DNA from: Linnemannia elongata | Taxonomy: Eukaryota > Mortierellomycota > Mortierellomycetes > Mortierellales > Mortierellaceae | Direction of reading: 5' to 3' | DNA length: 64,000 bases | NCBI GenBank assembly: GCA_036320915.1 | Contig: JAXBDG010000004.1 | Location: 1-64,000 of the forward strand | Shown here: in pieces, positions 471-17,273 of the stretch | Layout: the number at the start of each line of letters is the position of its first letter | Position numbering within the stretch: position 1 is the first letter of the stretch | Notes under the pieces: model-generated | Database searches by the model: none | Told to the model about the DNA's origin: nothing | What the model saw: the letters and a program-made list of their open reading frames with translations, nothing else | Translations under genes and position numbers: made by a program

Positions 471-492
471 AACCTTTAAAAACCCTAAAAAG

Positions 493-957: not shown

Positions 958-2217
958 ATGGAGACAACATTTGGAGACAAGCCCATGCCAAAAAAACTTG
1001 TACGACTGTTTGACGGTCTACTGGAGGATGAATGGGCATTCCTTGATGAACCATGGCCAATGTGCTCGAAGATCAAGACGTTTCACCGTTCAGAGTTTAA
1101 GCAAATCAAGAGAATACAGGACATGAAAGCCGTGTTGATGAAGCGACTTGGTCCCATCCCGGTGTTTTTTTTCCTGACTAATATATGGGGTAAGCATTAT
1201 TTCCCTGGGCCATTTAACTTGCTGGAGAAAGGCATTGCATTCCTGTACTTTTTCGTCGCTGGAGAGACTATGGATTCCATGTCGCAATACATGCCAAAGT
1301 CCACCTTCCATGTCATATACAGCACCTTCCTCAAGGCGGAGCGTGCGATGTTTAACAAGGAGATCAAACGCTGTTTTGCATCCATGTTTTCGTCTTTGGA
1401 GATTCGCATTCGAACGTCTAACTGGAAAAATCCACCAATGTTCAAGCATGTTACACTCATGCTAGATGGTCATGATTCACGTGTAACATATGGAGAGGAT
1501 AAAGCCGCAATGTACTCGTTTAAGCTCAAGAAATCAGGTTTGAGAACACAAGTGGCTATCGATGCCAATGGAATGGTACTCTTCGTATCCAAATCAGCAC
1601 CATGCCGTGATAACAACGATGGCAAAATGCTGCTAGAGATGGGCATTGGAAAAAAGATCGACAGCATGGACTGTGTTGCCCTTGATGGTGGATACACACT
1701 GCAAATACCTGATCTTCTAGAGAAAGAACAGTTGGAAGAGCATAACGTTTGTTTTCCCGTCCGCAAGAAACGCATGCAGCCACTTCACGAGGAGGAAACT
1801 AATTTTAATGCCATGTTTGGTGGGTTTCGATCCATGTCAGAGGATACGTTTGGTGACCTCATGAAAACATTTAAAAAGTTTAACAACAAGGAGATTGTAC
1901 GAACAGCATGCAAAACGGAATTTAATCTTGCTTTTCGCCTTTGTCTCCTCTTATTAAATGTTCGCAACTTTGTACGTGCACTGGACATCGAGGATATCCC
2001 AACTCATCGTGCGTGGATGGATGAAGGAGTGGACTATCCGCGCGAGAGGCAACTTGCTCCAGAATTAACACAAACTGTCACAGTACAATACAAACTGGAA
2101 AGTGGATTGGAATTGCAAAGAATGCAAGAAGAATTTTTGGGATTGGATGTTGCCTCGGATGATGATGAACAAATGTCGAATGCAGACGACGATAACAGTA
2201 GTGTAGCCAGTCTATGA
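958..2217 (+). CDS. DDE transposase (PIF/Harbinger-IS5-like), subtelomeric copy 1
   Basis: A 419-residue protein with no frameshift. It carries the layout of the DDE_Tnp_4 family: a first Asp in LMLDGHD, a second Asp in VALDGGY, and a Glu in FRSMSEDTFGDL, where the family has R-x-x-V-E-x-x-F-G. A conserved N-terminal block (DEWAFLDEPWPM) of unknown role precedes the core. It would cut and join DNA in the nucleus. Three other copies lie at 4513, 10142 and 14206. It faces a Rep-like gene remnant tail to tail across 47 bp that hold TTTTTAAAAA at 2251-2260. The Met at 958 was chosen because the alternative frame at 920 is a shadow. Whether it is active is unknown; the partner gene is broken. Confidence 0.72.
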   Translation: METTFGDKPMPKKLVRLFDGLLEDEWAFLDEPWPMCSKIKTFHRSEFKQIKRIQDMKAVLMKRLGPIPVFFFLTNIWGKHYFPGPFNLLEKGIAFLYFFVAGETMDSMSQYMPKSTFHVIYSTFLKAERAMFNKEIKRCFASMFSSLEIRIRTSNWKNPPMFKHVTLMLDGHDSRVTYGEDKAAMYSFKLKKSGLRTQVAIDANGMVLFVSKSAPCRDNNDGKMLLEMGIGKKIDSMDCVALDGGYTLQIPDLLEKEQLEEHNVCFPVRKKRMQPLHEEETNFNAMFGGFRSMSEDTFGDLMKTFKKFNNKEIVRTACKTEFNLAFRLCLLLLNVRNFVRALDIEDIPTHRAWMDEGVDYPRERQLAPELTQTVTVQYKLESGLELQRMQEEFLGLDVASDDDEQMSNADDDNSSVASL

Positions 2218-2264
2218 ACAGACAGACTCATGCATATATATCTATACAAATTTTTAAAAACTTG

Positions 2265-2684
2265 TCAAACATGCTCGCACTTGATATCGTCTATGCCATG
2301 TGAGCGAGATTTCCTCACAGCACGAAATGTCATGAACGGAACACCATCAACACTACCAGCTCTCTGTGTACCATCAACATGTTCTGCCCGCCATTGTCTC
2401 CAAATTTTGCCCAAAGATTTTCCAGCGCGTACCTTTAATCCACACGCTGTGATAAAATGCCACCGATGTTCACCGCGATATTCCTTGTAACCAGCTGCCA
2501 CAATGGTATACTCTGTGTCAGGTTCCAAGATTTGGTAGTCTGCCATATATAGCGACACATGAATGGCCTTCAGGTGTAGTACATTCGTGTCATCGTCCTC
2601 GTCATCATAGGCGACCATCCAAGCATAAGATATACAGCATAGACTTTTAAAAACAAGGAATATACCTTGCGCATTAGCTTCCAC
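2265..2684 (-). pseudogene. C-terminal remnant of the Rep-like protein
   Basis: The minus-strand frame reads about 115 residues that match the C-terminal ~110 residues of the intact Rep-like proteins at 8392 and 12438, including the shared strings YTIVAAG, FRG/YRG, CGLKVRAGKSL and IW. Homology stops near 2612, exactly where a ~500-bp duplicated block begins, and the frame then runs on through unrelated sequence to its apparent Met. It lies tail to tail with the transposase at 958, so the pair copies the arrangement of the intact elements. The rest of the gene is absent. Confidence 0.75.
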
Positions 2685-3106
2685 TTGTATTTATCACCTG
2701 GTTCTAATCTCCAAGTACAAGTTACATGCAGAGCACCTGCACCAAACTTTTATACTCTAGCCTGTCGATGATATTACATTGCGAATAATCTGCTCATGTT
2801 TCGTTGCTTCACGTCTTGAATGTCAGCAATTAGAAATAAATGTTGCTTCATACTCTTGAAGGCTACACACAAGATGTAGACCACCCGTGATCTTTCCCTC
2901 CACAGTCCACGATGCCCTCCACTGTGATAACACGGAGAGCGAACAGAGATTTCGTGTGGACATCATCTAGTCTCAACAGGGATTGCTATAGTATACCTGC
3001 TCACCATGACTTGATTCCACCATGAATCCTGCTTGTTGATGACCTTGATGTTTTTAAAAATATACAAGATATGCAATAGTATGAGCTAGCCTAAAATATT
3101 CCCCTA
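2608..3106 (+). repeat. ~499-bp duplicated block, copy 1
   Basis: Almost identical to 7887-8386 in the same orientation; I see two substitutions and one extra A in the T4A5 tract. In the other copy the block directly precedes the start of an intact Rep-like gene and so includes its 5' flank. Here it is joined on the left to a Rep tail in reverse orientation and on the right to AT-rich repeats. Palindromic T/A sites lie at 2645 and 3051. Confidence 0.92.
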
Positions 3107-3920
3107 GCTGATACGATCTCTACCCACACATTCACGGCATAAAAAAACACACCAATAACTGTGTAAGTGGATTTTCACGAAATAAACGATGTGTATTATA
3201 CTACACCCTATTTTCACAACACATTCACATCACGAAGCTACCAATACATTTATGACATAAAAAACTCACCAATAATTGTGTAAGTGGATTTTCACGATTT
3301 AGACAGTTCTTATACATAATCCCATGCAGACGCGACACATCTTTTCCATTTTAACATCTGACAAAGCAACCCATACATTCATGGGTTTTTTATCTCTGTC
3401 TTATTTTTTTAAAACCTTACCAATAACTGTGTGAGTGGATTTTCACGAAGTACGCGATACATGTTTCTGTCTGTTCCATCATGAAATAGCTGATACAAAT
3501 CTCTATCGGTACGATACAACCATTCACGAAATAAACGATCCATCTGCTTATCTGATCCATCATGAAATAGCTGATGCAAAACCTTGTAGGAGTTACGATA
3601 CATTCACGAGAATAACGATAGAAATAGTTTGTTTTGCATAACTGCTAGATAACCAACACGACCATTCATGCTTAAGATCCATGGCATGAACGTTTTAAAA
3701 GGGGGTCCATGCTCTGATCTATAACCTACACTTAACAAATATTACCTATGTGTTGTGCGAGTACATGATGGCTCCTACACCAATAACCTATTACACGATA
3801 AAACATCTTGTATACATGTTGTACTTAGTAGGCGGGAATAGTTACAAAAATATCTGATCTTTTCGACCATGAATCCTAACCGTTGATGAGTGTATAGTTT
3901 TTAAAAATCTAAAAAAATTC
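3107..3920. repeat. AT-rich degenerate direct repeats, no gene
   Basis: A block containing ACCAATAACTGTGTAAGTGG and TTTTCACGA recurs near 3150, 3265 and 3418; CCATCATGAAATAGCTGAT recurs at 3478 and 3557; CATTCACGA-type strings recur near 3131, 3520 and 3600. Palindromic T/A sites lie at 3404, 3693 and 3898. The last is preceded by an ACCATGAATCCT...GTTGATGA context also found before the site at 3051 and 8331. The short open frames here are repeat-derived. No gene is supported. Confidence 0.65.
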
Positions 3921-4238
3921 TTACTGGTCCATGGTTAACTTTCTAACTTTTTTTGTCAGCTTGGAAATTTCTTTATCCATATTCTCAACGTGTTCTGCAA
4001 GGTCTTGTACTATTGCCACTTGTTTTTTTAGTTGTTTAACATAGCTTTGATGGCTCTTTAGGATCTTGTCTTGTTTCTCCAATATTTTGTCGATCTTGTC
4101 ATGCATCGAGACAAGACCAACCGTTCTGCGAGTGGCTGCCAAGGCTACGGCACATTTTTTACATGTGGTAGGATTTGTTTTATAAAAATCCTCTGCCTCT
4201 TTTCGTACTTTACACTCTACACATTTTTTCTGTGACAT
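3921..4238 (-). CDS. small zinc-ribbon and coiled-coil protein
   Basis: A 105-residue protein. Residues 6-28 hold CVEC and CKKC separated by about 16 residues, with FYK before the second pair, the classic 'CxxC...F..C..C' short zinc ribbon. Residues ~46-103 are a heptad-rich Lys/Glu/Leu coiled coil (KIDKILEKQDKIL and similar). Such N-terminal ribbons are common in small proteins of nucleocytoplasmic large DNA viruses, phages and some mobile elements; that parallel is from memory of the pattern only. The gene is divergent from the transposase at 4513, with a T/A palindrome at 4376 between them and another at 3898 just after its stop. Likely a DNA- or protein-binding accessory; function unknown. 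Confidence 0.6.
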   Translation of the reverse strand: MSQKKCVECKVRKEAEDFYKTNPTTCKKCAVALAATRRTVGLVSMHDKIDKILEKQDKILKSHQSYVKQLKKQVAIVQDLAEHVENMDKEISKLTKKVRKLTMDQ

Positions 4239-4512
4239 TGTATGTTATTCGGCCCAAGCGTGTTTTTTGCCTTCTTATCACTCCATTTTGTCTATTCTAA
4301 ATTATTGGATAACCTCGCGTGTTTAGACTACATGTAGTGCTACTTGCCTTCCACCAAACCACCAACAATAGTATATTTTTTTAAAAAACATGTAATGTGC
4401 TTTCAAGCCTTTTGCATAACATAATATTTTACAGCTGATGTGCGATATAGGATAATAGTAAGACACTGACACATTCACCAACAGCAAAACCTATAAAAGA
4501 GGAAAGTACATC

Positions 4513-5814
4513 ATGACTTTAAATCAGCATTTCAACCACCTTCTCGACAAACAATGGTTGTTTCTTGAGGAAGGGTGGCCATTTGTTCCAGTAAGCACAA
4601 ACAATCGTACTGTTAACAAGGAGGTAGCATTCATGAAAACTATAAAGTCCACACTCATGGCGCGTCTTGGTGCCATTCCAGTCTTTTTCTTTCTTACAGT
4701 TATATGGCCAAATGTAAAGTACCCTGGCCCGTATCGTAAAGTAGAGAAGGGTCTTGTGCTTCTTTACCATTTGGTGAAAGGTGCATCTATGGAACAAATG
4801 TCACCGTTTCTTCCAAAGAGCAGCTTCTTTGCTATCTATTCCATGTTTTACAAGACAGAGTATACTGCGCATGACAAGTTTATTACATCTTGTCTTGCCA
4901 ACATGTTCTCAACAATTACCATTCGTCTCTTGTCAGCTAATAAGAAGAATCCTCCGCTCTTTAAACAAGTTACATTGCATCTTGATGGCCATGATACCAG
5001 GGCGACCTATCAAGGTGAGACTTCTGCAGAGATGTATTCTTACAAGCTAAAGAAATCTGGTCTGCGCACTCAAGTCGTAATGGACTGTAATGGTATGGCA
5101 CTATGGGTGTCCAAGTCTGCATCATGTAAAAACTATGCTGATGGTACAATGTTGCTCTCGATGAAGTTGGATAAAAAGATGCATGCAATGGATTGTGTGG
5201 CTGTTGATGGAGGGTACACACAGTTTTTAAAGACACTAGCCGAAAAGTCTGATCTTACTTTGCATAACTTTACACATCCATTTCGAAGGAAGAAACATCA
5301 GGATCTGACCTCACAAGAGACCGAGTACAACTCTATATTTGGAAGCTTTCGTTCACAGATGGAGGCACTATTTGGAGAACTAGGCAGTGTGTTTGAGCGA
5401 CATAACAACCGAGCTCCTATAATTACAGAGAAGAAGAATACATACAACCTACAGATGAAGTTGGCCTTGCTGCTTTTAAATATCAAGAGAATGGTAGCAA
5501 TGTTAAAGCTTACTTCTGAGCCAATTCATACATCTTGGATGCGTGATGACTTCGACTACCCAGGCGAGAACCAAGATGTCGAACAAACAATGGACTACTT
5601 TCCTATAAATGCATTACTGGAGGATGGTGATACCATGGCAAGGATGCAAGAAGAGTTTTTGGGTATGGCCATTGGTGATGAAGACATTACAATGGACCAT
5701 ATGCAGGAACACGCCACCATTGGTTTTGCGATCCCCAGATGGAGTGCAAAACGTAAATCTGCAGCCATGACGAATAAGACGCAAGATGCAGATGGTGAGG
5801 ATCATGATCTGTAA
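4513..5814 (+). CDS. DDE transposase (PIF/Harbinger-IS5-like), diverged copy
   Basis: A 433-residue, uninterrupted relative of the other three transposases and the most diverged of them. Catalytic positions are intact: Asp in LHLDGHD, Asp in VAVDGGY, Glu in FRSQMEALFGEL. The N-terminal DKQWLFLEEGWPF block matches DEWAFLDEPWPM of the copy at 958. A C-terminal extension of ~25 basic and acidic residues is unique. TATAAAAG lies at 4493, only ~14 nt before the ATG, so either it is not the TATA box or the leader is extremely short. There is no Rep-like partner; instead the next gene at 5953 encodes a zinc-cluster protein. The gene is AT-richer than the copies at 10-15 kb. Confidence 0.72.
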   Translation: MTLNQHFNHLLDKQWLFLEEGWPFVPVSTNNRTVNKEVAFMKTIKSTLMARLGAIPVFFFLTVIWPNVKYPGPYRKVEKGLVLLYHLVKGASMEQMSPFLPKSSFFAIYSMFYKTEYTAHDKFITSCLANMFSTITIRLLSANKKNPPLFKQVTLHLDGHDTRATYQGETSAEMYSYKLKKSGLRTQVVMDCNGMALWVSKSASCKNYADGTMLLSMKLDKKMHAMDCVAVDGGYTQFLKTLAEKSDLTLHNFTHPFRRKKHQDLTSQETEYNSIFGSFRSQMEALFGELGSVFERHNNRAPIITEKKNTYNLQMKLALLLLNIKRMVAMLKLTSEPIHTSWMRDDFDYPGENQDVEQTMDYFPINALLEDGDTMARMQEEFLGMAIGDEDITMDHMQEHATIGFAIPRWSAKRKSAAMTNKTQDADGEDHDL

Positions 5815-5952
5815 GAACTTTTTACAAATATGCACAAGGATGATGCCTTTTAGTTTTTTTTAAAAAAGTGCTTAGATGCTACTCGTCTTGTTGTTGTAGG
5901 AATCTCTAACAGATATTTTATTTCTTCCAATTTTCCGATAACAATTATAAGC

Positions 5953-7866
5953 ATGTACGTCCAGTTGACCGAGATTGTCTCCAAAGCCGCCAAGCTGTTT
6001 TGCAACATAACAGGAGTGGAGCTGAAGGCAAAGCAAGTAAAGAAGATTATCAAAGCACTTGCTGACGATGACAATGTGCAAAAGCACTATTTTTGCGAGG
6101 CTAAATGTGTCTCGTCCGAGCGCATTTGCATGAAGAAAGTAGATGATGAGGGCATGTGTTGTTATATTCATGATCCTGATCGCAAGTGCCAGGGAAACAA
6201 CATCAGTGGCGTTAAATGCCGTTCTGTTGCAAAGGTAGGTGAAACACACTGCCGTCGACATCTCGACCAAGCAGGGAGGCATGTAAAGAGGAGCACGAAG
6301 GTATCCACAAGCAGCGAAGATGAGAGACCTGCCAAAAAGGTCAAACGTGATGCTAAAAAGACAAAGAATCGTCACAGTTCTGTAGATTCAGACGCTGATG
6401 ACTCTACGGAGGCCGAGATTCCCAAGAAAAAAGCAAAGAAATCTCGTACTCCTGAGCTTGTTGATACAGATGCTGATGATTCTTCAGAGGATGACACACC
6501 ACACATGAAGTCCAAGGTTAAAGAATCGCGGCAGTCACACACTCTAGAGGATATCAACTCTGAGGAGGAAGAGGATGAGAATGTATCTGATAGAGAGTCC
6601 AGTTATGGCGCATTGCCGCTAAGCTCAAAGGTGTTTGACATTACGTCCAAGAAGAAAGTACCATCTGCAAAGAAGGGAAAATGGGTCAAGTGTCCATTCA
6701 ACGATAACCTTGAGTATGCCAGAAACTTTACAGTAAATGGTAAACACATCTTGAAGTTGCGAAAAAAAGACGCTTACCACCATTTGTATACAGCAAAGAA
6801 CTTGTCCGCAGATGATACAGTTTTCCAAGACTTGACAAGCAAAGAAAGTCGTATTCTCGAGAAGATGGGTCTGCGTCAAACAACAAAGGCGGAGAACCAA
6901 AAGATATTCCCAGATGAGTCCGATGAGGAATCCGACGACAAAGAGGCATCTGAAGATAAGGAATCCGATGGTTCCAACGAATCATCTGAAGATAAGGAAT
7001 CCGATGGTTCCAACGAATCATCTGAAGAAGCTGAGGCGGAAAAGTTGGTGAAAGGAAATAAAAAGCCCAAGCCTACGAGCATATGCAAGGGTTTTACTAA
7101 ACCAGGCGCAAAGTGCACAAAGCCTGTTGCCAAGGGTGAATATTGCACATTGCATCATACTCAAGCATCCAATCATGTAAGCAAAAAGAATGTTACATGG
7201 GAAACGTTTCCTTTGGCAGACAACCTAGAATACACATATGACATTTGTATTAGAGGTAGATATCCTCTGAAAAAGCGTAAAGAGGATTTAGTTGTTAAGT
7301 TGGTAACAAAGGAACAACTCTCACGTCCAGATGAATGGTATATGGGTACGATGACTCTTCAAGACAAGGAGGAACTTTTTATTATGGGACTTGTGCCAGA
7401 AGAGTATAAGCCTTGCCCACAACAGAAACAAGCAGATAACATAGCTGACAACTGCTTAGATGAAGAACAATCGGATAGCTATGATAGCAAGTATGATGAC
7501 GATTCCGCATTCCTCATAAGTAGCTTGCACAAGATTTCTCCCATAGCTGATAACTGTTTGGATGACGAACAATCGGATAGCTATGATAGCAAGTATGATG
7601 ACGATTCCGCATTCCTCATAAGTAGCTTGCACAAGAATTCTCCCATAGCTGATACCTGTTTGGATGACGAACAATCGGATAGCTATGATAGCAAGTATGA
7701 TGACGATTCCGCATTCCTCATAAGGACGATGCAAAAATATGTCGTCCGAAAACTCTTGGTGAAACCAGGGAAGAAGCCCTCGATAACACCTCCCTTGGAG
7801 ACTATCAACGAGGACCCTCCCTTGGTCAGACGTAAGGTAACATTGGAGGCTGACGATGAGCCATAA
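5953..7866 (+). CDS. acidic modular protein with Cys/His zinc clusters
   Basis: A 637-residue protein built from repeats. Short Cys/His clusters of the form C-x(n)-G-x-x-C-x(n)-C-x2-H occur near residues 60-73, 78-98 and 378-395 (for example CTKPVAKGEYCTLHH). A second module with the word DNLEY occurs twice (around residues 250 and 425), each following or near a cluster. Long Ser/Asp/Glu and Lys stretches suggest a nuclear, flexible protein. The last third has three tandem copies of ~35 residues. The cluster type is frequent in giant-virus and mobile-element proteins. TTTTTTTTAAAAAA lies upstream at 5854 and TTTTTAAAA directly after the stop at 7871. I do not recognise a named family; DNA or chromatin binding is a guess. 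Confidence 0.6.
   Translation: MYVQLTEIVSKAAKLFCNITGVELKAKQVKKIIKALADDDNVQKHYFCEAKCVSSERICMKKVDDEGMCCYIHDPDRKCQGNNISGVKCRSVAKVGETHCRRHLDQAGRHVKRSTKVSTSSEDERPAKKVKRDAKKTKNRHSSVDSDADDSTEAEIPKKKAKKSRTPELVDTDADDSSEDDTPHMKSKVKESRQSHTLEDINSEEEEDENVSDRESSYGALPLSSKVFDITSKKKVPSAKKGKWVKCPFNDNLEYARNFTVNGKHILKLRKKDAYHHLYTAKNLSADDTVFQDLTSKESRILEKMGLRQTTKAENQKIFPDESDEESDDKEASEDKESDGSNESSEDKESDGSNESSEEAEAEKLVKGNKKPKPTSICKGFTKPGAKCTKPVAKGEYCTLHHTQASNHVSKKNVTWETFPLADNLEYTYDICIRGRYPLKKRKEDLVVKLVTKEQLSRPDEWYMGTMTLQDKEELFIMGLVPEEYKPCPQQKQADNIADNCLDEEQSDSYDSKYDDDSAFLISSLHKISPIADNCLDDEQSDSYDSKYDDDSAFLISSLHKNSPIADTCLDDEQSDSYDSKYDDDSAFLIRTMQKYVVRKLLVKPGKKPSITPPLETINEDPPLVRRKVTLEADDEP
7437..7737 (+). repeat. three in-frame tandem repeats of ~102-105 bp
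   Basis: The block encoding LDEEQSDSYDSKYDDDSAF is present three times, starting near 7455, 7557 and 7662, with almost no nucleotide differences between copies. They lie in the 3' third of the zinc-cluster gene. The near identity points to recent expansion. A smaller duplicated unit, ESDGSNESSEDK, lies at about 6961-7020. Confidence 0.9.
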
Positions 7867-7886
7867 AACCTTTTTAAAACCTTTAC

Positions 7887-8386
7887 TAGGCGACCATCCA
7901 AGCATAAGATATACAGCATAGACTTTTAAAAAACAAGGAATATACCTTGCGCAATAGCTTCCACTTGTATTTATCGCCTGGTTCTAATCTCCAAGTACAA
8001 GTTACATGCAGAGCACCTGCACCAAACTTTTATACTCTAGCCTGTCGATGATATTACATTGCGAATAATCTGCTCATGTTTCGTTGCTTCACGTCTTGAA
8101 TGTCAGCAATTAGAAATAAATGTTGCTTCATACTCTTGAAGGCTACACACAAGATGTAGACCACCCGTGATCTTTCCCTCCACAGTCCACGATGCCCTCC
8201 ACTGTGATAACACGGAGAGCGAACAGAGATTTCGTGTGGACATCATCTAGTCTCAACAGGGATTGCTATAGTATACCTGCTCACCATGACTTGATTCCAC
8301 CATGAATCCTGCTTGTTGATGACCTTGATGTTTTTAAAAATATACAAGATATGCAATAGTATGAGCTAGCCTAAAATATTCCCCTA
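7887..8386 (+). repeat. ~500-bp duplicated block, copy 2 (5' flank of Rep-like gene)
   Basis: Near-identical to 2608-3106. Its right end stops 5 bp before the ATG of the Rep-like gene at 8392, so it contains that gene's promoter region. T/A palindromes lie at 7924 and 8331, the second ~52 bp upstream of the ATG. There is no convincing open frame inside it. Confidence 0.92.
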
Positions 8387-8391
8387 ACAAC

Positions 8392-10089
8392 ATGTCACGG
8401 TCAAAGGAAGCTATCATCAACGAGATCCTCAATAAGTACACGCACAACCTTGCCGACGTTGGCAAATGTGTACATCCCCTTGGTCGTCTTGGAGGTACCA
8501 AACGCAAGGGGTTCACACGGTTCTCCAAGATGTTCTGTGACAGTATGGTTTTTTGGGCTCCGGTCAACTATGCCGATGAAAAGGTCAGGGGCAAGTCCAT
8601 TGGCAAATATATGGCTGACTTACGTGAGGCATTTGGCAAGGCGGATCTACCTTACGATTCCATCAAGTCGCTGCATAGTGGCACTCTGTTGGACGAAGAG
8701 TATATCCCTGCTGACATCCAAACCGCACATGCACAAGAGCACAGCAATGGACCATACTCTGCCGGATTTGTCTCTATCAAGGTGTCTCTATACCACTGCC
8801 GTGCCAAAAAGGTGGTAATGGCCATGGCTGCCATCCTGCCTATCCTTCGGAAGCGGTACCTTGTCCTGCATGACATCGACATGACTCATGACTGCAGGTA
8901 TGTATCAACCCGGACCTATTTGGAGAGGCACTTGAAGGCTAAGGGCATTTCAACGATAGTTAACGATCGCGGACGGGTGGGTGACCACTGTGTGACCTGG
9001 TTTGCATCTGCAGACAATGCCCAAAAAATCAGGTGCAAGGTCTATAACAAGCTGGTCCAGATGCTCGAAAGCGCGGATGTGCGAAAGAGTCTCGGTTCAA
9101 GGATGGAGGATATAGTTGCCAATCCAGATGAGAAGTTCACCAGGACTCTATTGCGCCATAGGGATCATGGCCTTTCACGGCTGGAGCTAACCTTTTATGG
9201 CTCAAGGCTGCACCCTTTGGCGGTATACCAAGATAGGATGGATGATGCGCGTAGGCTTTTGGACGGCTGCACCACGTTTGACTACAGCTATGAACAGCAC
9301 TGGATAGAACGTGCTGAGCTTATAAAGGCCATGGTCGCGGTGTATATCCCTGGAAGCAAGGTCTTTGCATACTGCCACTGGTGGAACTCTACAACCCGCA
9401 AGAAGTACGGTTATATGTGGTCCAAAGTTTCAGCACCGCTTGCCATGCACCTGGTTGCCAACTACTCGTTCAACGACCGTCCCATCTACTATGTGGAGGC
9501 CAAAGTTAGCGAGAATGGTACAGTGGAGGTCACCAAGGAGAAGATGTATGAGAGAGAGCCAGGCTGCAAGGCCAAAACATTGGTACCAGGTGGTTCCAAG
9601 GGTATGTTCCCCTCATACGCACTGTTCGACCGCGAAGTATATAAGTTTGCCGACATGGGTATTGTATCTGTGGACAACATCCGCATTGGATGGCCAAAGA
9701 GGCGACACCACAAGGAGAGTGCACCGTTAGCTGTCCTTGTGGAGCGCAGATCCGATGATGGGCAGTATGTTAAGCATATGCAGAGTATACATTCATCCGC
9801 CTTTGGAACCGGCTACAATGTGCTTGAGCCAGGTCGCATATATACCATTGCTGCAGCAGGCTTAAAGAAGTTTCGCGGGACTTTGTACTGGCATATAATT
9901 ATGGACTGTGGTACCAGAGTTAGAGCCGGTAAGTCCCTCTGTAACCTGTGGGAAACGTGGCGGAGAAAATATAGGGGAACGAATGGCCAAGTAAGAATCC
10001 ACCATGTGCCAAAGATGACCTTCCTTGCAGAACGCACAGTCCGCTCCAAAGGCACGAACGACATGAAGTGTAAGCTGGTCCAGGAGTAA
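8392..10089 (+). CDS. Rep-like protein (putative replication initiator), intact copy A
   Basis: A 565-residue protein, closely matched over its whole length by the 563-residue protein at 12438. Three motifs in order resemble the Rep_trans / filamentous-phage gene II type of replication initiator: HDIDMTHDC at residues 160-168, KVYNK at 216-220 and SRLELTFYG at 262-270. An obvious HUH pair is not seen. A conserved C-terminal domain (~455-565; CGTRVRAGKSL, FLAERTV) is also what survives at 2265. The ATG was fixed by the shared start MSRSKEAIINE / MTRSNESIINE. The gene runs tail to tail into an intact transposase 53 bp away. If the motif reading is right it would nick or bind DNA to start copying of the element; no function is proven and a DNA-binding accessory is the main alternative. 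Confidence 0.5.
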   Translation: MSRSKEAIINEILNKYTHNLADVGKCVHPLGRLGGTKRKGFTRFSKMFCDSMVFWAPVNYADEKVRGKSIGKYMADLREAFGKADLPYDSIKSLHSGTLLDEEYIPADIQTAHAQEHSNGPYSAGFVSIKVSLYHCRAKKVVMAMAAILPILRKRYLVLHDIDMTHDCRYVSTRTYLERHLKAKGISTIVNDRGRVGDHCVTWFASADNAQKIRCKVYNKLVQMLESADVRKSLGSRMEDIVANPDEKFTRTLLRHRDHGLSRLELTFYGSRLHPLAVYQDRMDDARRLLDGCTTFDYSYEQHWIERAELIKAMVAVYIPGSKVFAYCHWWNSTTRKKYGYMWSKVSAPLAMHLVANYSFNDRPIYYVEAKVSENGTVEVTKEKMYEREPGCKAKTLVPGGSKGMFPSYALFDREVYKFADMGIVSVDNIRIGWPKRRHHKESAPLAVLVERRSDDGQYVKHMQSIHSSAFGTGYNVLEPGRIYTIAAAGLKKFRGTLYWHIIMDCGTRVRAGKSLCNLWETWRRKYRGTNGQVRIHHVPKMTFLAERTVRSKGTNDMKCKLVQE

Positions 10090-10141
10090 CGTAAGGTAAG
10101 GTTTTTAAAAACTTGGTACATGCTGCCACAAAAATCAGGCC

Positions 10142-11350
10142 CTACAGTTCCTCGTCATCCTCCGACATGTCCATTCCCAAGAAGGCGTTCTGGAGTTCCT
10201 GTAGTTCAGATCCATTCTGTAGCCTATTTTGGACAGTCTCTACCTCGGAGTTCTGCAGGACAGGCTTATTGGTGGTTGGATAGTCGAATCCATCCTCGAT
10301 CCATTCCATATGGTGGGGTAGTATATCCAGGCTGAGGTTGTTGGACATATTACGTGCATTTAGCAGCAGAAAGCACAACCGCAACATCATGTTAACCTCC
10401 CTCTTGTCGGTGGTACGGATGGCGTCTTTATGGTTGAACTTGGCAAAGGTGGATCCGAGCTCACCAAAGGTATTTTCAACCATAGACCTGAATCCTCCGA
10501 ACATCGTATTAAAGGTAGCCTCATCCTCATCCAAGGGCTTTCCATTGCGCTTACGTATGGGAAAACAAAAGTTGCGAATATCCAGGGTGTCTTCTTTCTC
10601 CAGGAGCTTGGGTATATGCTGTGGGTATCCACCATCAAGGCCAATGCAGTCCACCTCATGAATCCTTTTGGCCACACCCATGTCAACCAGCATGGTACCA
10701 TCGTTGTGTTTCTTACATGACTCGGACTTGGACACAAAGACCACCATGTTGTTGACGTCTATGCATACTTGTGTGCGTAGGCCTGACTTCCTGAACTTAA
10801 AGCTGTACATCTCCGACTTTAACTCCCCGTAGGTTGCCCGTGTGTCATGGCCATCCAGCAGCAGTGTTACATGCTTGAACATCTTTGGGTTACTCCATCT
10901 GGCCGATCGCATGCGTATCTCAGGGGTGGAAAACATGGTTGAGAAGCACCTTGCCATTTCCTTGTTGAACAGGCTCCTTTCCTCCTTGAAGAACGTGCGG
11001 AAGATCTCGTAGAAGGATGACCGGGGCATGAACACCGACATGGACTCCATGGATTCTCCAGAGACAAAAAAGTATAAGAAGGCAATACCCTTTTCAAGTG
11101 CCTTATACGGACCGGGGAAGTATACTTTACTCCACAGGACCGTCAGGAAGAAGTACACCGCAACAGCCCCCAGCTTGGACATGACCGCTAATTTCATGTG
11201 ACGCATACCCTTGATGACCTTGAACTCAGACCGGTGTGCCCTACGAGTTTTTGGGTACATTGGCCAGGGATCATCCAAGAAGGTCCACTCCTCCTGAATA
11301 ATCGCCCTGAACAAATCTTGAAGTTTTTCGGGAACGTTGCCGCTTGACAT
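10142..11350 (-). CDS. DDE transposase (PIF/Harbinger-IS5-like), intact partner of Rep-like gene A
   Basis: 402 residues from the Met at 11350, chosen because the homologous copies start at the same place (MSSGN / MSEPK); an in-frame Met at 11395 adds 15 residues. The catalytic triad is Asp166 in LLLDGHD, Asp239 in IGLDGGY and Glu292 in FRSMVENTFGEL, with the conserved NNDG/HNDG loop between the first two. It sits 53 bp from the stop of the Rep-like gene, tail to tail, with TTTTTAAAAACTTG between. The upstream region at 11396-11530 holds a GC-rich stem-loop. This is the only pair in the window in which both genes are whole, so it is the best candidate for an active unit. Confidence 0.75.
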   Translation of the reverse strand: MSSGNVPEKLQDLFRAIIQEEWTFLDDPWPMYPKTRRAHRSEFKVIKGMRHMKLAVMSKLGAVAVYFFLTVLWSKVYFPGPYKALEKGIAFLYFFVSGESMESMSVFMPRSSFYEIFRTFFKEERSLFNKEMARCFSTMFSTPEIRMRSARWSNPKMFKHVTLLLDGHDTRATYGELKSEMYSFKFRKSGLRTQVCIDVNNMVVFVSKSESCKKHNDGTMLVDMGVAKRIHEVDCIGLDGGYPQHIPKLLEKEDTLDIRNFCFPIRKRNGKPLDEDEATFNTMFGGFRSMVENTFGELGSTFAKFNHKDAIRTTDKREVNMMLRLCFLLLNARNMSNNLSLDILPHHMEWIEDGFDYPTTNKPVLQNSEVETVQNRLQNGSELQELQNAFLGMDMSEDDEEL

Positions 11351-11395
11351 ATTTGTTTTGTATATCCTGTACTTACCTGGTCTACCATACCGCAT

Positions 11396-11740
11396 TTGTC
11401 ATTCGTTACCTTTACATCATGCATATACCGTAGGTCATCGGCAATGGATAACACCAAAGGGGGGTTGAGGGCATCAGCCAGAGTAAAGCTACAACCCCCC
11501 CTTCGAGGTCTTTCATGCAGCACAACCTCCCAGAGCCTACTTCTTTTACCTAGAACTACTGTACGCTCCCCTCTATCCTAAACTCATCCATCCCCGGTAC
11601 CGCCTTTTTAAAACATATGGTAATCTATGCAGCATACTCTCACACACCTTGAAGCGCCTATCTATACTAGTCCCGGATGACTCCCTATGCTATGTATGAG
11701 ATGTTAGAGCAGGTTTACAAAGGCAATCGTCCACATCCCT
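11396..11740. other. element end with GC-rich stem-loop and small-ORF scrap
   Basis: No gene. At 11459-11501 a 9-bp stem GGGGGGTTG/CAACCCCCC encloses a loop with GCATCAGCCAG, the same core as at the ends of the 4-kb element. A T/A palindrome lies at 11605. At 11684-11731 a piece matches the middle of the small gene at 12116 (around 12265-12312). The whole stretch 11340-11690 recurs in eroded form at 21226-21540. Confidence 0.65.
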
Positions 11741-12089
11741 AATACATGAGGAAGCACCATAGGAGTGGTCGATCGTGTATAATATCAGGCAACTTTTAAA
11801 AAGCATGGATACAGGAGGCAGAGGATTTGTATAGATGGTAGTGGTGGGTAAGAGGAGGTGGATAATATGGGTGGTGGTGTAAAGGAGAGGCCAATGGAGG
11901 TTTGGGGGGGGGTGTAGTTTTCCACTGGCCGATGCTTACACCCCCCCTTTGGTCCATTCGAGGTGTATTTGGAGATGTCTCTTGGCTATGCAGTGCAGTC
12001 TCTGAGCACCTCCCCTGACATGTATTGGAACCCGCTTTTGCTGGTATCATAGGCCCATCTTGAATGGTCTGCGTTGGCGGGTTGTGGAC
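11741..12089 (+). repeat. left inverted-repeat arm
   Basis: Reverse complement of 15411-15752, with few mismatches and small indels. Contains ACTTTTAAAAAG at 11793 and the stem-loop G9...C7 at 11904-11947, whose stem also pairs TGTA with TACA and whose loop holds CCACTGGCCGATG. The segment 11829-12089 is repeated directly at 15770-16030 as the left end of a further copy. Confidence 0.9.
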
Positions 12090-12115
12090 GTCGCACTGGT
12101 ACCCAATATATCATC

Positions 12116-12385
12116 ATGCCTGTTTCCCATGAAAAGTCTTTCCAGCAGGATGTTGTCGCCGAATTTGTAGATGATCATCGTCTTGAGTACTGTATGTTTG
12201 TTTACCTCGATGCATTCCTCGATACCCATCACGCTAAGTATCCTGACCTTGTGGACAGATGGGATCCCTATGCTATGTATGAGATGTTAGAGCAGGTTTA
12301 CAAAGGTATCCGCCTAGAGCTCCTAAAACGCGGACTTCTTACAAATAAGGTAGCTGGTGAGTATGTGATGAAACGATCCCAGTGA
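12116..12385 (+). CDS. 89-residue conserved element protein
   Basis: Starts at the Met of MPVSHEKS; an upstream in-frame Met at 12074 lies in the inverted-repeat arm and is less likely. The copy at 16058 has the same length and about 80% identical residues, with differences spread as expected for a protein under constraint. It is predicted all-helical (DVVAEFVDDHRLEYCMFVYL, EMLEQVYKGIRLELLKRG), without cysteine clusters or a membrane segment. It lies between the left arm and the Rep-like gene, on the same strand, 52 bp upstream of it. A small regulator or accessory of the Rep-like protein is the natural guess; no family recognised. Confidence 0.6.
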   Translation: MPVSHEKSFQQDVVAEFVDDHRLEYCMFVYLDAFLDTHHAKYPDLVDRWDPYAMYEMLEQVYKGIRLELLKRGLLTNKVAGEYVMKRSQ

Positions 12386-12437
12386 GCCATGGTTGGCCTG
12401 AGTGGTTTTTAAAAATTTGCCCAAACACACTTCAACC

Positions 12438-14129
12438 ATGACAAGATCAAACGAGTCCATTATCAACGAGGTTTTTAAGAAGTACAGCGGTAATTTGGCT
12501 GACTTTGGTAGGCAGTCCTGTTCCCGCAGAGAGAGTAGACAGGGCTTTGCAAAGTTTTCCAAGATGTTTTGCGACAGCTTGGTTATGTGGGGACTCTACA
12601 ATACCTTGTCTGAGGACACCAAGGGAGTAACCATTGGGAAGTACATGGCAGAGTTGCGTGAGCTTTGTAGTAGGCACTCCTTGCCCTGTGACTCCATTAA
12701 GATGGTTACTACGGGTACAAATATCGGCGAGGAGTATTTCTCAGAGGACATGAAGGAAGCGTACGCCGCAGAGTTTGCTGGACAGTCCCTCCACATGGGG
12801 TACATTGCCATTAAGATGTCCCTGAAACAGTGCCGAGCAAAGAGGGCTGTGTTGGCACTGTCACCCATGCTGGAGACCCTCAGAAGCAAGCATATGGTGC
12901 TTCATGACATAGACATGACCCGCGACTGCCGATATGTCACAGAACGTCGTCTTGTTGAGCAACATCTGTTGCGGAATGGTATCACCAAGGTCATCAAGGA
13001 CCGTAGTCGTGTGGGTGACCATTGTATCTCCTGGATGGGCAGTTCAGATGACACCAAGAACATCCGCTACAAGGTCTACAACAAGTTTGTACAGATCCTA
13101 GAGAGCGCTGAGGTCCGTAAGAGTCTTGGGTCAAGGATGGAGGGTCTTGTAGCTGATGATGACGAAAGATTCATGGCAAGGCTGCTTCGCCACAAGGACC
13201 ATGGGATGTCCCGTCTGGAGCTGACATTCTATGGTAGTACCTTGTTGTCTTTGGACGAGTACCTGGCCCACTTGGATCATGCAAGGGCCCTGCTGAGCAC
13301 TTGTCGTGTCTATGACTACAGCTATGAGGAGATGTGGAAAGAAAGGGCCAACTACATAGAGTCCATGGTCGCAGTGCATATACCTGCCAAGAAGGTCTTT
13401 GCCTACTGCCATTGGTGGAACTCGGTGACCTCCAAAAAGTATGGATACATGTGGAAGAACGTTGGATCCAAACTTGTTCCCCTGCTGCTGGCCAACTACT
13501 CTTTCAACGACAGGCCTATCCATTACATCAAGGTCAAGGTGGATGACGCTGGAGTGGTGGAGATTATCAGCGAGAAGGTCTACGAGAGGGAATCTGGATG
13601 CACAGCCATGACATTGGTGGCTGGCAAGACCAAAGGCATGTTTCCCTCTCGAGACACCTGTGAGGGACTTGTCTACGAGTTCTCGGAGGTTGGCATTGTG
13701 GAGCATAAGAATATCTCCATTGGATGGCCCGAGAAGAAGCATAGCAAGAAGAGCAGGCCATTAGCAGTCCTTGTTGAGAAGCCTACATCCGATAGCCATG
13801 AGGGATATGTCCGGTGGATGAAGAAGCCACACTCCACCTTGTTTACCGCCGATTACAACATCCTTGTCCCAGGCACAGAATATACCGTTGTTGCCGCAGG
13901 GTTGGCAGATTTCCGGGGAAACAGCTACTGGCATTTGGTCACCGAATGTGGCCTCAAGGTCAAGGCTGGAAAGTCCCTTGAAGGCATCTGGGAACGATGG
14001 AGAGGCCAATACAGAGGAAACCATGGCGGGGTTCTCATCCACAAAATCCCCAAGATGAGGTTTTTGGCAGAGAGAAAGGTTAAAATCAGAGGTATGTCTG
14101 TCGTGAAGTGCGTCTTGGTGAGGACATAG
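12438..14129 (+). CDS. Rep-like protein (putative replication initiator), copy B
   Basis: 563 residues, uninterrupted. The three motifs of copy A are kept: HDIDMTRDC, KVYNK and SRLELTFYG, as are RVGDHC and SLGSRME between them. The ATG at 12438 matches the start of copy A; the open frame extends 36 nt further upstream through the T/A palindrome at 12406, which is unlikely to be translated. The GC content is clearly higher than in genes at 1-8 kb. The downstream junction has a duplicated ~40-bp block with two TTTTTAAAAACTTGG sites (14151, 14190) before the convergent transposase. Good conservation against copy A, with its partner transposase already broken, suggests selection on this gene or recent spread. 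Confidence 0.5.
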   Translation: MTRSNESIINEVFKKYSGNLADFGRQSCSRRESRQGFAKFSKMFCDSLVMWGLYNTLSEDTKGVTIGKYMAELRELCSRHSLPCDSIKMVTTGTNIGEEYFSEDMKEAYAAEFAGQSLHMGYIAIKMSLKQCRAKRAVLALSPMLETLRSKHMVLHDIDMTRDCRYVTERRLVEQHLLRNGITKVIKDRSRVGDHCISWMGSSDDTKNIRYKVYNKFVQILESAEVRKSLGSRMEGLVADDDERFMARLLRHKDHGMSRLELTFYGSTLLSLDEYLAHLDHARALLSTCRVYDYSYEEMWKERANYIESMVAVHIPAKKVFAYCHWWNSVTSKKYGYMWKNVGSKLVPLLLANYSFNDRPIHYIKVKVDDAGVVEIISEKVYERESGCTAMTLVAGKTKGMFPSRDTCEGLVYEFSEVGIVEHKNISIGWPEKKHSKKSRPLAVLVEKPTSDSHEGYVRWMKKPHSTLFTADYNILVPGTEYTVVAAGLADFRGNSYWHLVTECGLKVKAGKSLEGIWERWRGQYRGNHGGVLIHKIPKMRFLAERKVKIRGMSVVKCVLVRT

Positions 14130-14205
14130 GTGGTGGTAGCGTGGCATAGGTTTTTAAAAACTTGGACGTAGGTCGTAGCATGGCACAGGTTTTTAAAAAC
14201 TTGGC

Positions 14206-15386
14206 TCAGATCATCTCATCCTCATCTGACAGATCCATCCCAAGGAATTCTTCCTGTAGTCGCAACAGCTCTGCACCGCTCTCCAGCCTGTTTTGCACCG
14301 TGGCTACCTGGGACTGCACCAAGACAGACTGCTTACGTGGATAGTCAAACCCATCCTCTGCCCATGCCATATGGTGGGGTTGTACCTCAACGTTAAGAGC
14401 ATTGGACATATTACGGACATTCATCAGCAGGAAACACAGGCGCATCATCATGTTAACCTCCTTCTTGTCTGTAGTACGTATGGACTCCTTGTTGTTGAAC
14501 TTTCTAAATGTACGCCCAAGATCCCCAAATGTGGCCTCGATCATGGACCTGAAGCCAGCGAACTCGGAGTTAAATAAGCCCTCATGCTCGTCCAAGTCCT
14601 GTCCCGGTTTCTTGCGGATAGGGAAGCAAAAGTTCCTTACATCCAGAGAGTCCTCACGTTCAAGCAGGGTAGGGATATGCTGTGTATATCCGCCATCAAC
14701 ACCTACACAGTCCATCTCATGGATCTTGTTTGCAAGGCCCATTTCTACCATCATGCTGCCGTCGTTGTTGTCTTTACATGGAGCGGACTTGGATACAAAG
14801 AGTACCATGTGGTTGATGTCTATGCACACCTGGGTCCTGAGGCCAGACTTCTTAAGCTTGTATGAGTACATCTTGGCCTTGGTTTCGCGATATGTTGCCC
14901 GGGTATCATGACCATCCAGCAGCAGGGTAATATGCCTGAACATCCGTGGGTTAGTCCATACGGCAGACCTCATGCGGATTTCAGGGGTGGAAAACATGTT
15001 GGCAAAACATCTCGTCATCTCCTTCTCAAACAGCCTCTTCTCGGTCTTGAAGAAAGTTCTGTAGATCTCATAGAAGCTAGACCTGGGCAAGAACACAGAC
15101 ATGGCCTCCATAGAATCGCCTGAAACAAGATAGTACAGGAGGGCGATACCTTTCTCCACTGCTTTGTATGGACCTGGGAAATACACCTTGTTCCAAAGGG
15201 TTGTGAGAAAGAAGAACACACCAATGGCTCCTATCTTGCCTATGACCTCCTCCTTCATGTGGTGCATGTTGTAACTTTCTGGTGGTAGGGTACAATGGCC
15301 ATGGATTCTCAAGAAAACCCCACTCCTCCGCGAGTATTGCATTCAAGCAGGCGTTGAGCTTTTTTTGGAAATTTAGGCTCGGACAT
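14206..15386 (-). pseudogene. DDE transposase, frame broken twice
   Basis: The main frame (to 15342) encodes the catalytic core with all three acidic positions: LLLDGHD, VGVDGGY and FRSMIEATFGDL. The N-terminal part lies in two other frames. One break is at a run of seven A near 15360, just after MSEPKFPKK; the other is near 15285, where about a dozen residues present in the intact copies are also missing. The second change is a true deletion, so this is decay and not only a homopolymer error. The start matches Met 15386 inside the edge of the right arm. It is the partner of the intact Rep-like gene at 12438, 77 bp away. Confidence 0.75.
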
Positions 15387-15410
15387 TGGATATGTTGAAG
15401 AAAGGCCTCC

Positions 15411-15752
15411 ACAACCCACCATACCCAGACCATTCAAGATGGGCCTATGATACCAGCAAAAGCGGGTTCCAATACATATCAGGGGGATGCTCAGAAACAG
15501 CACTGCAGAGCCAAGAAACATCTCTAAATACACCTCGAGTGGACCAAAGGGGTGTAAGCATCGGCCAGTGGAAAACTACACCCCCCCCTAACCACCACTT
15601 GCCTCTCCTTTGCACCACCACCCATATTATCCACCTCCTCTTACCCACCATTACCATCTATACAAATCCTCTGCCTCCTGTATCCATGGTTTTTAAAAGT
15701 TGCCTGATATTACACACGATCGCCCACTTCTCTGGTGCTTCCTACTGTATTA
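15411..15752 (-). repeat. right inverted-repeat arm
   Basis: Reverse complement of 11741-12089. Holds the stem-loop at 15549-15588 (GGGGTGTA/TACACCCC stem, loop with GCATCGGCCAG) and GTTTTTAAAAG at 15690. Only ~18 bp separate it from the left arm of the next copy at 15770, which is again its inverse, so 15411-16030 forms a large imperfect palindrome. Confidence 0.9.
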
Positions 15753-16057
15753 AGGATACGGACGATCTCCATAGATGGGAGTGGTGGGTAAGAGGAGGTG
15801 GATAATATGGGTGGTGGTGTAAAGGAAAGGGCAATGGGGCTTCGGGGGGGTGGTTGTAGATCTCCATGGACCAATGCTTACAACCCCCCTTTGGTCCACT
15901 CGAGGTGTATTTGGAGATGTCTCTTGGCTGACAGGGCTGTCTCTGAGCATCTCCCCTGGTATGTATTGGCATCTGCTTTTGCTGGTATCACGGGCCAATC
16001 TTGAATAGTTAGCATATCGTGGGTTGTGGAGGTCTCAATCGTACCCAATATCTCATC

Positions 16058-16327
16058 ATGCCTGTTTCCCATGAAAAGTCCCTCCAGCAGGATGTTGTTG
16101 AGGAATTTGTTGATGACCTTCATCTTGAGTACTGTATGCTTGTTTATCTCGATGCATTCCTCGATGCCCATCGGGCTAACCATCCAGATCTTGTGGACAG
16201 ATGGGATCCCAATGCTATATACGACATGCTAGAACAGGTGTACAAGGGTATCCGCCTAGAGCTCTTAAGTCATGGACTTCTTACAGATAAGGCTGCTGCT
16301 GGCTATGTGACGAAAAGGTCTCAGTGA
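16058..16327 (+). CDS. 89-residue conserved element protein, second copy
   Basis: Starts MPVSHEKS and ends TKRSQ like the copy at 12116, with the same length and no gaps; conserved stretches include DLVDRWDP and LEQVYKGIRLELL. It is intact although the Rep-like gene behind it is truncated. It is followed by CTTTTTAAAAAG at 16348 and the Rep start at 16380, the same spacing as in the full element. Function unknown. Confidence 0.55.
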   Translation: MPVSHEKSLQQDVVEEFVDDLHLEYCMLVYLDAFLDAHRANHPDLVDRWDPNAIYDMLEQVYKGIRLELLSHGLLTDKAAAGYVTKRSQ

Positions 16328-16379
16328 GCCGTGGTTGACTTGTGTGCTTTTTAAAAAGTTACTCAAACACACATCAACC

Positions 16380-16511
16380 ATGGCAAGATTTAACGAGTCA
16401 ACTATCAACGAGGTTCTCAAGAAGTATATCCCCTCCAGCAAAGCTACAGGAACAATACTACCCGTCAAGTCTCTCGATAGGTACATGTCCGACCATACAA
16501 CAATGTCTTAG
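16380..16511 (+). pseudogene. N-terminal stub of Rep-like protein
   Basis: The first 16 codons (MARFNESTINEVLKKY) match the start of the copy at 12438; then the frame runs through unrelated codons to a stop at 16509. The upstream context (T/A palindrome, then CAAACACACATCAACC before the ATG) is the same as in the intact copy. Confidence 0.7.
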
Positions 16512-17273
16512 ACAGTTCGGCCATGTCTGACTTATTGCCTTGTGTAGATTCTAATTCTATTTTCTTTTGTTGTTCGTAAATCACTTTCTGTCAGCTACAT
16601 ACAGTGTACCCCTAAAAGGGTTTACTCTGGTCTTGCCAACTAATCCCCCTTTTTTATCAAGGATAAGCATTATTGAAGGCTTCAACATAACGGAGGAGAA
16701 ATCAACTTAGCAGCGTTCTTTGGAAATGCAAGGCTTGCTTGTCTGTCTCTCGCCTAGAGGTGTTTGGATGGCGAAGGTATAAAATAGAGTTGGCAAAGGA
16801 CAAAGGGCAGAAAACAAACAAAATCAGGTGAGCACCGTTTTCATCATTTCTTTGTTTTCGTTTTACCCCATACAAATAGCCATACCAGCCTTGTCTGTTC
16901 TCCCTTTCCTATTTCCGACCAAGGTCGTTAGTACTCAAGTACTTTATTCCGGCATGTTCATAACATGATACCCTGTCCTGCAGTTGGGGCTGCATTTGGA
17001 GGTTTCTCTGTCTCATTCATCGTCCTTTTACTTCTAATCCTTCTCCGTTCTGCTTCTATTGTAATCCAGTCCCAACCCCCAATTACTCCAACAAGCACCG
17101 CTCAGAGAATCCGCCTACTGTCAATTTCAAGCCCTATACTCCTACCAACAACTGTCGACCTTGCCAGCACTCTTTGTAAGTTTTGTGATATGAAATGCGT
17201 TGCAATCGATAAATACACCACAGCAAAGGATGCTGTTAACCCTTTCTCCCTTTCGTTTTTGTAGCCAGATATC
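16512..17273 (+). promoter_or_regulatory. promoter and leader of the NACHT-WD40 gene
   Basis: GTATAAAATAGAG at 16776 fits a TATA box. A likely leader intron has a donor CAGGTGAGC near 16827, and another candidate intron runs from GTAAGT at 17175 to TTTTTGTAG at 17264, nine bases before the ATG at 17274. The open frame at 16965 covers leader and intron sequence and is not counted as a gene. No similarity to the subtelomeric elements was noticed here. Confidence 0.5.

Follow-up and report, generated by a model that had tools for sequence, protein, structure and literature searches.

What is a protein resembling replication initiators doing beside a transposase gene at a fungal chromosome end? 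The question is raised by the first 64 kb (the window) of contig C27 (JAXBDG010000004.1) of Linnemannia elongata, whose genome comprises 51.1 Mb in 32 contigs. An earlier sequence-only reading had described a repeated two-gene system beside a telomere, in which a DDE_Tnp_4 transposase gene and a gene for a replication-initiator-like (Rep-like) protein converge. The telomere is there, as its repeat (AAAACCCTAA) occupies positions 1-491, and the pair does recur, forming the coding core of terminal inverted repeat (TIR) transposons, a family clustered near contig ends. The mobile unit, however, is larger than two genes: it is a transposon of 3.9-4.1 kb with long TIRs, 3-bp target site duplications (TSDs) and a third small gene, and DDE genes also occur without the partner. 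Overall, the evidence makes it fairly probable that this DDE transposon carries its own predicted nickase of the Rep_trans/gene II-like kind, which would likely cut a hairpin inside each TIR.

Anatomy of the element

Comparison of copies distinguishes three subfamilies, A, B and C. All three are present in the window, and another element, D, lies between the C and A copies:

571-2610: subfamily C element; its DDE-side end, GGGAATCGTCCAGGG at 571, is common to other copies, and element D cuts in at 2611
789-843, plus strand: TIR hairpin of subfamily C (G-run ... GGCCGA ... C-run)
958-2217, plus strand: DDE_Tnp_4 transposase of subfamily C, 419 aa (PF13359, E 1.6e-12, 958-2214)
2265-2610, minus strand: C-terminal remnant of the subfamily C Rep-like protein, within the open frame 2265-2684
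8385-11685: subfamily A element, 5'-truncated and adjoining element D (full length elsewhere 3941 bp)
8392-10089, plus strand: Rep-like protein of subfamily A (565 aa), with D50, D163, K216, Y218, K220, Q223, R263 and E265 as predicted catalytic residues
10142-11395, minus strand: DDE_Tnp_4 transposase of subfamily A, 417 aa (PF13359, E 3.6e-9, 10145-11395)
11375-11685: right TIR of A, terminating GACTCCC (311-313 bp in a full copy)
11451-11507, minus strand: TIR hairpin of A, loop GGCTGA
11722-15770: subfamily B element; its left terminus reads GGCAATCGTCC, and its degenerate right terminus lies near 15770
11898-11955, plus strand: TIR hairpin of B, loop GGCCGA
12116-12385, plus strand: third gene of B, 89 aa, without Pfam match
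12438-14129, plus strand: Rep-like protein of subfamily B, 563 aa, ATG at 12438, 55% identical to that of A
14206-15342, minus strand: DDE_Tnp_4 transposase of subfamily B, 378-aa frame (PF13359, E 4.7e-11)
15771-16500, plus strand: fragment of a further B-like element, with part of a TIR, an 89-codon third gene (16058-16327) and the start of a Rep-like gene

Subfamily A measures 3941 bp in 10 of the 11 copies with both inner ends read, and 3943 bp in the other; its TIRs start GGGAGTCATCC, span 311-313 bp and are 99% identical in the one copy examined. Subfamily B, which starts GGCAATCGTCC, measures 4078-4084 bp in five copies. Subfamily C starts GGGAATCGTCC, resembling B across the first bases, and one of its copies has arms of at least 345 bp that agree at 94%. 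The window copies are in different states of repair. The B copy is nearly complete, with arms agreeing at 91% across 364 positions and a shortened DDE frame, which looks N-terminally damaged because the frame reaches at least 417 aa in several other copies. The A copy has lost the third gene and the left TIR. Of three convergent loci claimed earlier, those of A and B hold as frames, while the third (958-2612) is a remnant cut at 2611 that retains only the C-terminal part of the partner; the intervals between the convergent frames are 47, 52 and 76 bp instead of the 48, 53 and 77 bp reported.

The third gene, flanked by the Rep-side TIR on one side and the Rep-like gene on the other, has 93 (A), 89 (B) or 88 (C) codons. 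Between A and C it carries 39, 25 and 60 changes at codon positions 1, 2 and 3, and this third-position excess indicates that it behaves as a coding gene. A Pfam search with the A and B proteins returns only a single chance-level match, for A; one guess is that the product is a DNA-binding or regulatory subunit. Motifs resembling TTTTTAAAAA are found ~25-60 bp upstream of the Rep-like ATGs (window 8331-8392 and 12404-12438) and also between the convergent stops of pair A (10100-10112).

Pairing, distribution and mobility

A genome-wide count, named in the sequence-only reading as a check, bears out the recurrence of the pair. With the subfamily A 565-aa protein as query, the genome contains at least 79 partner matches, a lower bound given that 77 of 111 candidates were scored; A copies are mostly 98-99% identical to the query, B copies ~55% and C copies ~48%. 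Full length without internal stop, from query residue 4 or less through 563 or more, is retained by 29 of the 79. A convergent DDE core lies within 1.5 kb of 51 of the 54 matches that extend to residue 480 or beyond, mostly 260-330 bp from the partner end; the other three are C17:10726, C3:2223170 and C7:19382. By the same 1.5-kb test, 26 of 77 DDE matches are unpaired, comprising nine element D genes, 12 interior genes and five genes beside broken copies, the window C copy among these five. Within 30 kb of a contig end lie 65 of the 79 partner matches, in 18 end regions (~3 expected from length), and the contig ends carrying them are likely chromosome ends. The remaining 14 are interior, on C1, C12 and C28. 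At C12:1824505-1846472 and C1:4478210-4494072, Rep-like copies are clustered at a distance from any contig end; these two clusters may mark ancient chromosome fusions or joins made in assembly.

Could the two genes simply be separate elements that adjoin by chance in recombining subtelomeres? Nested and truncated copies do crowd the contig ends, and a DDE lineage without the Rep-like protein exists in element D, which also counts against a fixed partnership. However, the frequency and regular spacing of the pairs speak against chance, as does the fact that common TIRs enclose both genes and TSDs flank the whole unit, interior copies included (C1:2474929-2478871 and C28:617685-621625). Chance adjacency is therefore highly improbable.

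The TSDs were assessed in 40 left-right end combinations, with ends read 3-5.5 kb apart. Exact 3-bp agreement occurs in five combinations from five separate elements (~0.6 expected): AAT, AAT, TTA, ACG and CTT, the last two from B copies. Exact 2-bp agreement in 11 combinations owes several cases to identical end units facing each other. The empty targets of the ACG and CTT insertions are present at other loci (20 and 8 string finds, with overlapping loci counted repeatedly), confirming that 3 bp are duplicated. Among the sequences searched, the three A copies with a TSD have no empty site. The extra end units of the ACG and CTT copies lie inside the duplications, which makes the unit-bearing ends mobile ends in their own right. 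Against this, most copies have no TSD, and 24 of the 40 combinations disagree.

These duplications also bear on whether the element belongs to the Pangu group and moves by cut-and-paste, in which case the Rep-like protein would serve only to maintain end units or chromosome ends. Pangu is described (PMC4482050) as having a DDE open reading frame (ORF), a motif-less ORF, TIRs that start with AG or GG, and TSDs of the form ANT; here, two of the five TSDs are AAT, and the termini start GG. On the other hand, the other TSDs are TTA, ACG and CTT, and the TIRs are at least 311 bp long versus 11-40 bp in the description of Pangu. A Pangu-group assignment is improbable.

Fold and predicted active site of the Rep-like protein

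The AlphaFold model of the A protein (pLDDT 94.1) adopts a predicted TBP-like fold, which is also used by Rep_trans initiators. Foldseek with the full model against the PDB places the Rep_trans protein RepDE first (4cwe_A, E 2.1e-3, prob 0.89) and RepSTK1 third (4cij_B, E 4.7e-3), while against viral models a gene II replication protein is second (E 3.4e-4).

The description of RepDE (PMC4797284) names Y191 as nucleophile and D46, D142 and E214 as metal ligands; R140, A144, D146, T176, Y178, G180, R189, K193, E196 and R212 are also conserved, and RepSTK1 has Q184 at the position of E196. Across 74 members of the fungal family, D50 is present in all 71 sequences that cover it (three gaps), and D163, K216, Y218, K220, R263 and E265 in all 74; D167 is present in 73, Q223 in 73 (once E), and A, T or S at 165 in 72. 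The columns are spaced as D142-x-A-x-D146, R189-x-Y191-x-K193-x-x-E196 and R212-x-E214 are in the published RepDE set. In the model they fall on strand, strand, strand, helix and strand, as reported for RepDE, with the candidate metal ligands D50, D163 and E265 on separate predicted strands (48-59, 158-169 and 261-269). In K216-x-Y218-x-K220-x-x-Q223, set against R189-x-Y191-x-K193-x-x-E/Q196, the Tyr, Lys and Gln agree and the Arg is replaced by Lys. Further differences from the RepDE set are D161 for R140 and the absence of T-x-Y-x-G. The motif order HDIDMTHDC, KVYNK, SRLELTFYG, on which the sequence-only reading had based its comparison with Rep_trans/gene II initiators, is that of the Rep_trans active site as described (PMC4797284). 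The missing HUH pair, which it had taken for the weak point, is none, as Rep_trans enzymes are described there as having no such pair. An HUH enzyme was itself considered and rejected, as no His-hydrophobic-His pair is found among the invariant or nearly invariant columns.

A loosened signature fits 69 of the 74 members and nine of 11 bacterial and phage yardsticks, compared with five of 22,200 shuffles, none of 74 reversed proteins and none of 2000 column permutations. One member, P0084 from Apophysomyces, matches phrog_702, the replication protein profile of phage gene II, over residues 133-288 (E 1.6e-6); f1 gene II matches the same profile at E 3.5e-84 through its last 276 aa. The 25 of 47 PHROG families listed also include profiles of unknown function: phrog_37286, matched by two members (best E 2.6e-4, in P0092 at residues 362-439), and phrog_21655, matched by one (E 5.3e-4). 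When 20 divergent members are aligned with gene II by HHalign (E 0.17, not significant), HDFDIT pairs with GRIDVT, KVYNK with KAYLK and SRIEI with VRFEA.

Several results weigh against a Rep_trans/gene II assignment. By fold, Foldseek gives no PDB match as good as E 0.001, and it aligns RepDE loosely (rmsd 10.2, TM 0.16/0.28). VIA-align scores TBP (7.3) and RepSTK1 (6.6) as tied, and with the domain alone it gives S6-type proteins up to 8.6 and TBP 8.2, with Rep_trans absent among the 50 matches listed. Foldseek on the domain alone puts a peroxidase first and 4cij 14th. The fold check suggested by the sequence-only reading has a divided outcome: RepDE leads the PDB list of the full model, and TBP and ribosomal S6 have fold scores no worse than those of Rep_trans. 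By sequence, the strict signature, with R at 189, fits none of the 74 members and eight of the 11 yardsticks, and it was loosened (K at 189, S/T at 144) after the fungal residues had been seen. The phrog_702 match occurs in only one of the 74. Pfam assigns no replication family, PF02486 included, to the two window Rep-like proteins at E 1, or to the 74 members among the 25 of 59 families listed, where an unlisted family could be a single member at E ~0.077 or worse; NCBIfam likewise yields no replication family for the 74. Because the Pfam profiles give no match, the protein is called Rep_trans/gene II-like and not a member of Rep_trans. HHalign of the family against 11 Rep_trans and seven gene II sequences gives nothing significant (E 0.17-0.37). 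For these comparisons and those with HMMER, the yardsticks are small profiles in which f1 is represented by its C-terminal part and three of the 11 Rep_trans sequences are unannotated open frames; gene II against Rep_trans in the same set-up reaches only E 0.051. Among 102 relatives and 1020 shuffles, the HMMER gene II profile ranks P0084 first at only E 0.068, and the Rep_trans profile intermixes real and shuffled sequences. The likeness claimed earlier stands in predicted fold class, in residue order and in a single profile match, but not in profile-profile comparison, and by fold Rep_trans is equalled or surpassed.

The strongest objection to a nickase is that the partner may be a non-catalytic TBP-like DNA-binding protein that brings the DDE enzyme to the TIRs, like the Myb-like proteins of PIF/Harbinger, and nicks nothing. 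Such a helper would also explain the fold. Against it stand the invariant columns, whose acids, Tyr, Lys and Arg follow the published Rep_trans active site in both order and spacing, and the one member that matches the gene II profile. A helper is unlikely, though it is the alternative to be taken most seriously.

Relatives of the Rep-like protein with a name are exclusively fungal, while most matches have none; the named taxa are Linnemannia elongata, Mortierella, Podila, Actinomortierella, Haplosporangium, Gryganskiella and Apophysomyces. A viral or prokaryotic origin was considered and dropped: scans with three peptide patterns followed by tblastn gave 52 pattern hits among IMG/VR contigs and 137 among GTDB genomes, none of them confirmed as a relative. 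A tblastn search of phage records with P0084 gives no match, and a protein search with a RepC fragment lists close RepC relatives only. Pf1 orf430 and phage B5 orf9 were discarded as Rep_trans yardsticks, the former having no Pfam family and the latter belonging to Rep_1. Matches to ThiC, Fcf1, ComA and others in Pfam and NCBIfam are weak, involve at most six of the 74 members and are taken as chance. One Mortierella alpina protein annotated with a heterokaryon incompatibility domain (P0089, PF06985) has a match covering 37% of the Rep-like query, possibly a fusion or a gene-model artefact.

Terminal hairpins, end units and a possible mechanism

Where might a nickase act? In the first 700 bp, A and B have in common a stretch across the third gene and ~49 bp at TIR position 185-233 (82% identical). 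C has the same TIR feature, a G-run and a C-run paired around a loop with GGCYGA, so the hairpin is present in A, B and C. The loci examined contain 31 distinct hairpin strings, though from three lineages only and with shifts in the register of the G-run. Relative to dinucleotide shuffles, the DNA folding energy of the TIR hairpin has z-scores of -3.2 (A), -2.1 (B) and -1.4 (C), and that of the end units -1.0, -2.0 and -2.0; the C hairpin and the A unit are weak by this measure, a point against the nickase reading.

Many copies carry one or two extra units of 256-259 bp in tandem at an end. The end unit equals the TIR for 212 bp from the terminus in A (one unit and one TIR compared) and in B (the best match among 11 units and 14 TIRs); in C, it matches at 250 of 251 bp (one unit, best of six TIRs). 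In all three, the best-matching unit/TIR pairs diverge directly after GGCYGA, inside the hairpin loop. This junction is suggestive of the break-and-join site of a nickase. Alternatively, it may date from a single early event and have been maintained by gene conversion, which fits too because unit tails are alike across subfamilies. L015 and L062 contain hybrids in which the loop of a unit leads into TIR sequence. Three B-type termini in tandem, at 258-bp spacing, are seen at C18:312048-312564, C31:5737-6379, L062 and L063, and the unit tails in these runs read CTACTA or CCACCTA before the next terminus.

A mechanism can be sketched in steps of decreasing confidence. The DDE protein would insert the element, the most secure step. 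Next, the Rep-like protein would be a tyrosine nickase of the Rep_trans/gene II type and, third, its site would be the TIR hairpin; Tyr218 would bond covalently to DNA at the loop, with the metal held by D50, D163 and E265. Least securely, the nick would prime displacement synthesis, by which the element or its ends may be copied out, and the DDE enzyme would then paste the copy in. In its fullest form, the proposal is of the first eukaryotic transposon to combine a DDE integrase with an unrelated second mobility enzyme, a rolling-circle nickase of the Rep_trans/gene II type; the nickase would cut at GGCYGA in the TIR hairpins, copy the element and multiply its ends in 258-bp steps, while the integrase would paste copies, filling the chromosome ends of Mortierella-type fungi. 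The arguments for and against this complete scenario are nearly balanced, with the scale tipping slightly to the negative side.

Relation to known systems

Helitrons and Replitrons are eukaryotic mobile elements with a replication-type nickase, in both cases an HUH enzyme, and to our knowledge neither has a DDE partner. DNA transposons, for their part, are usually taken to move by cut-and-paste. By its description (PMC4482050), the PHIS superfamily (PIF/Harbinger, ISL2EU, Spy, Pangu and Nuwa) is alike in its DDE_Tnp_4 transposase, TIRs, 3-bp TSD and second gene, and the elements described here have PF13359 above cut-off, TIRs and a TSD length within the 0-3 bp of the superfamily. They differ in that the second protein is Rep-like and not Myb/SANT or YqaJ, the TIRs are at least 311 bp long with a conserved hairpin, a third small gene is present, and the TSDs are neither TWA nor ANT throughout. 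PIF/Harbinger and Nuwa, with a Myb/SANT second protein and a TWA, CWG or TNA TSD, do not accommodate them; no Myb/SANT domain is found by Pfam in the partner (for all 74 members, among the same 25 of 59 families listed). Neither does Pangu (ANT TSD, TIR 11-40 bp), as judged by TSDs and TIR lengths.

Rep_trans proteins (pT181 RepC/RepD, RepSTK1 and MOBT) have in common with the Rep-like protein the predicted TBP-like fold class, the D/D/E metal columns, Y-x-K, R-x-E and a hairpin as candidate substrate. The fungal protein differs in that it is encoded by a eukaryotic TIR transposon, extends ~250 residues further at the C-terminus, has K in place of R189 and gives no Pfam match. Filamentous phage gene II (Phage_CRI, phrog_702) is linked by the profile match of P0084, which covers the catalytic stretch, but through this one member of the 74 only, and its host and kind of element are different. 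The Rep-Arvir proteins, from viruses and plasmids of archaea, are described (PMC13107129) as having a Rep_trans-like fold recognisable by structure only and a hairpin origin; they belong to archaeal replicons, and the likeness is one of description.

As to novelty, the PHIS study lists Myb/SANT, YqaJ and motif-less second ORFs (PMC4482050), and a 2025 paper adds TET and mentions SET genes (PMC12730594). According to a 2026 paper, Rep_trans enzymes seemed restricted to bacteria before its archaeal family (PMC13107129). A literature search of titles and abstract starts, with Repbase and subscription papers outside its scope, revealed no eukaryotic Rep_trans and no DDE element with a Rep_trans-like gene. 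If the nickase reading is true, the Rep_trans superfamily reaches the third domain of life, two transposition chemistries are joined in one small element, and a copy-out/paste-in route becomes testable for DNA transposons. A direct test is feasible, given the conserved hairpin, the predicted nucleophile Y218 and the near-identical intact copies.

Element D and other window features

Element D occupies 2611-8384 (~5.77 kb). Its ends are not inverted but direct repeats of ~495 bp (2611-3104 and 7890-8384; GCGACCATCC...TATTCCCC). Its DDE_Tnp_4 gene (4513-5814) is 44-50% identical to those of A-C, and a second protein of 637 aa (5953-7866) has weak zf-primase/DUF5763 matches. Other copies show 4-bp duplications, TGTG on C2 and CATG flanking a solo repeat in L025. 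Element D is thus a DDE element with direct ends like long terminal repeats and with solo repeats, an odd combination. An Rfam scan of window 1-17000 gives no match at gathering score. Outside the elements, at 32465-33177, a 239-bp unit stands in three tandem copies.

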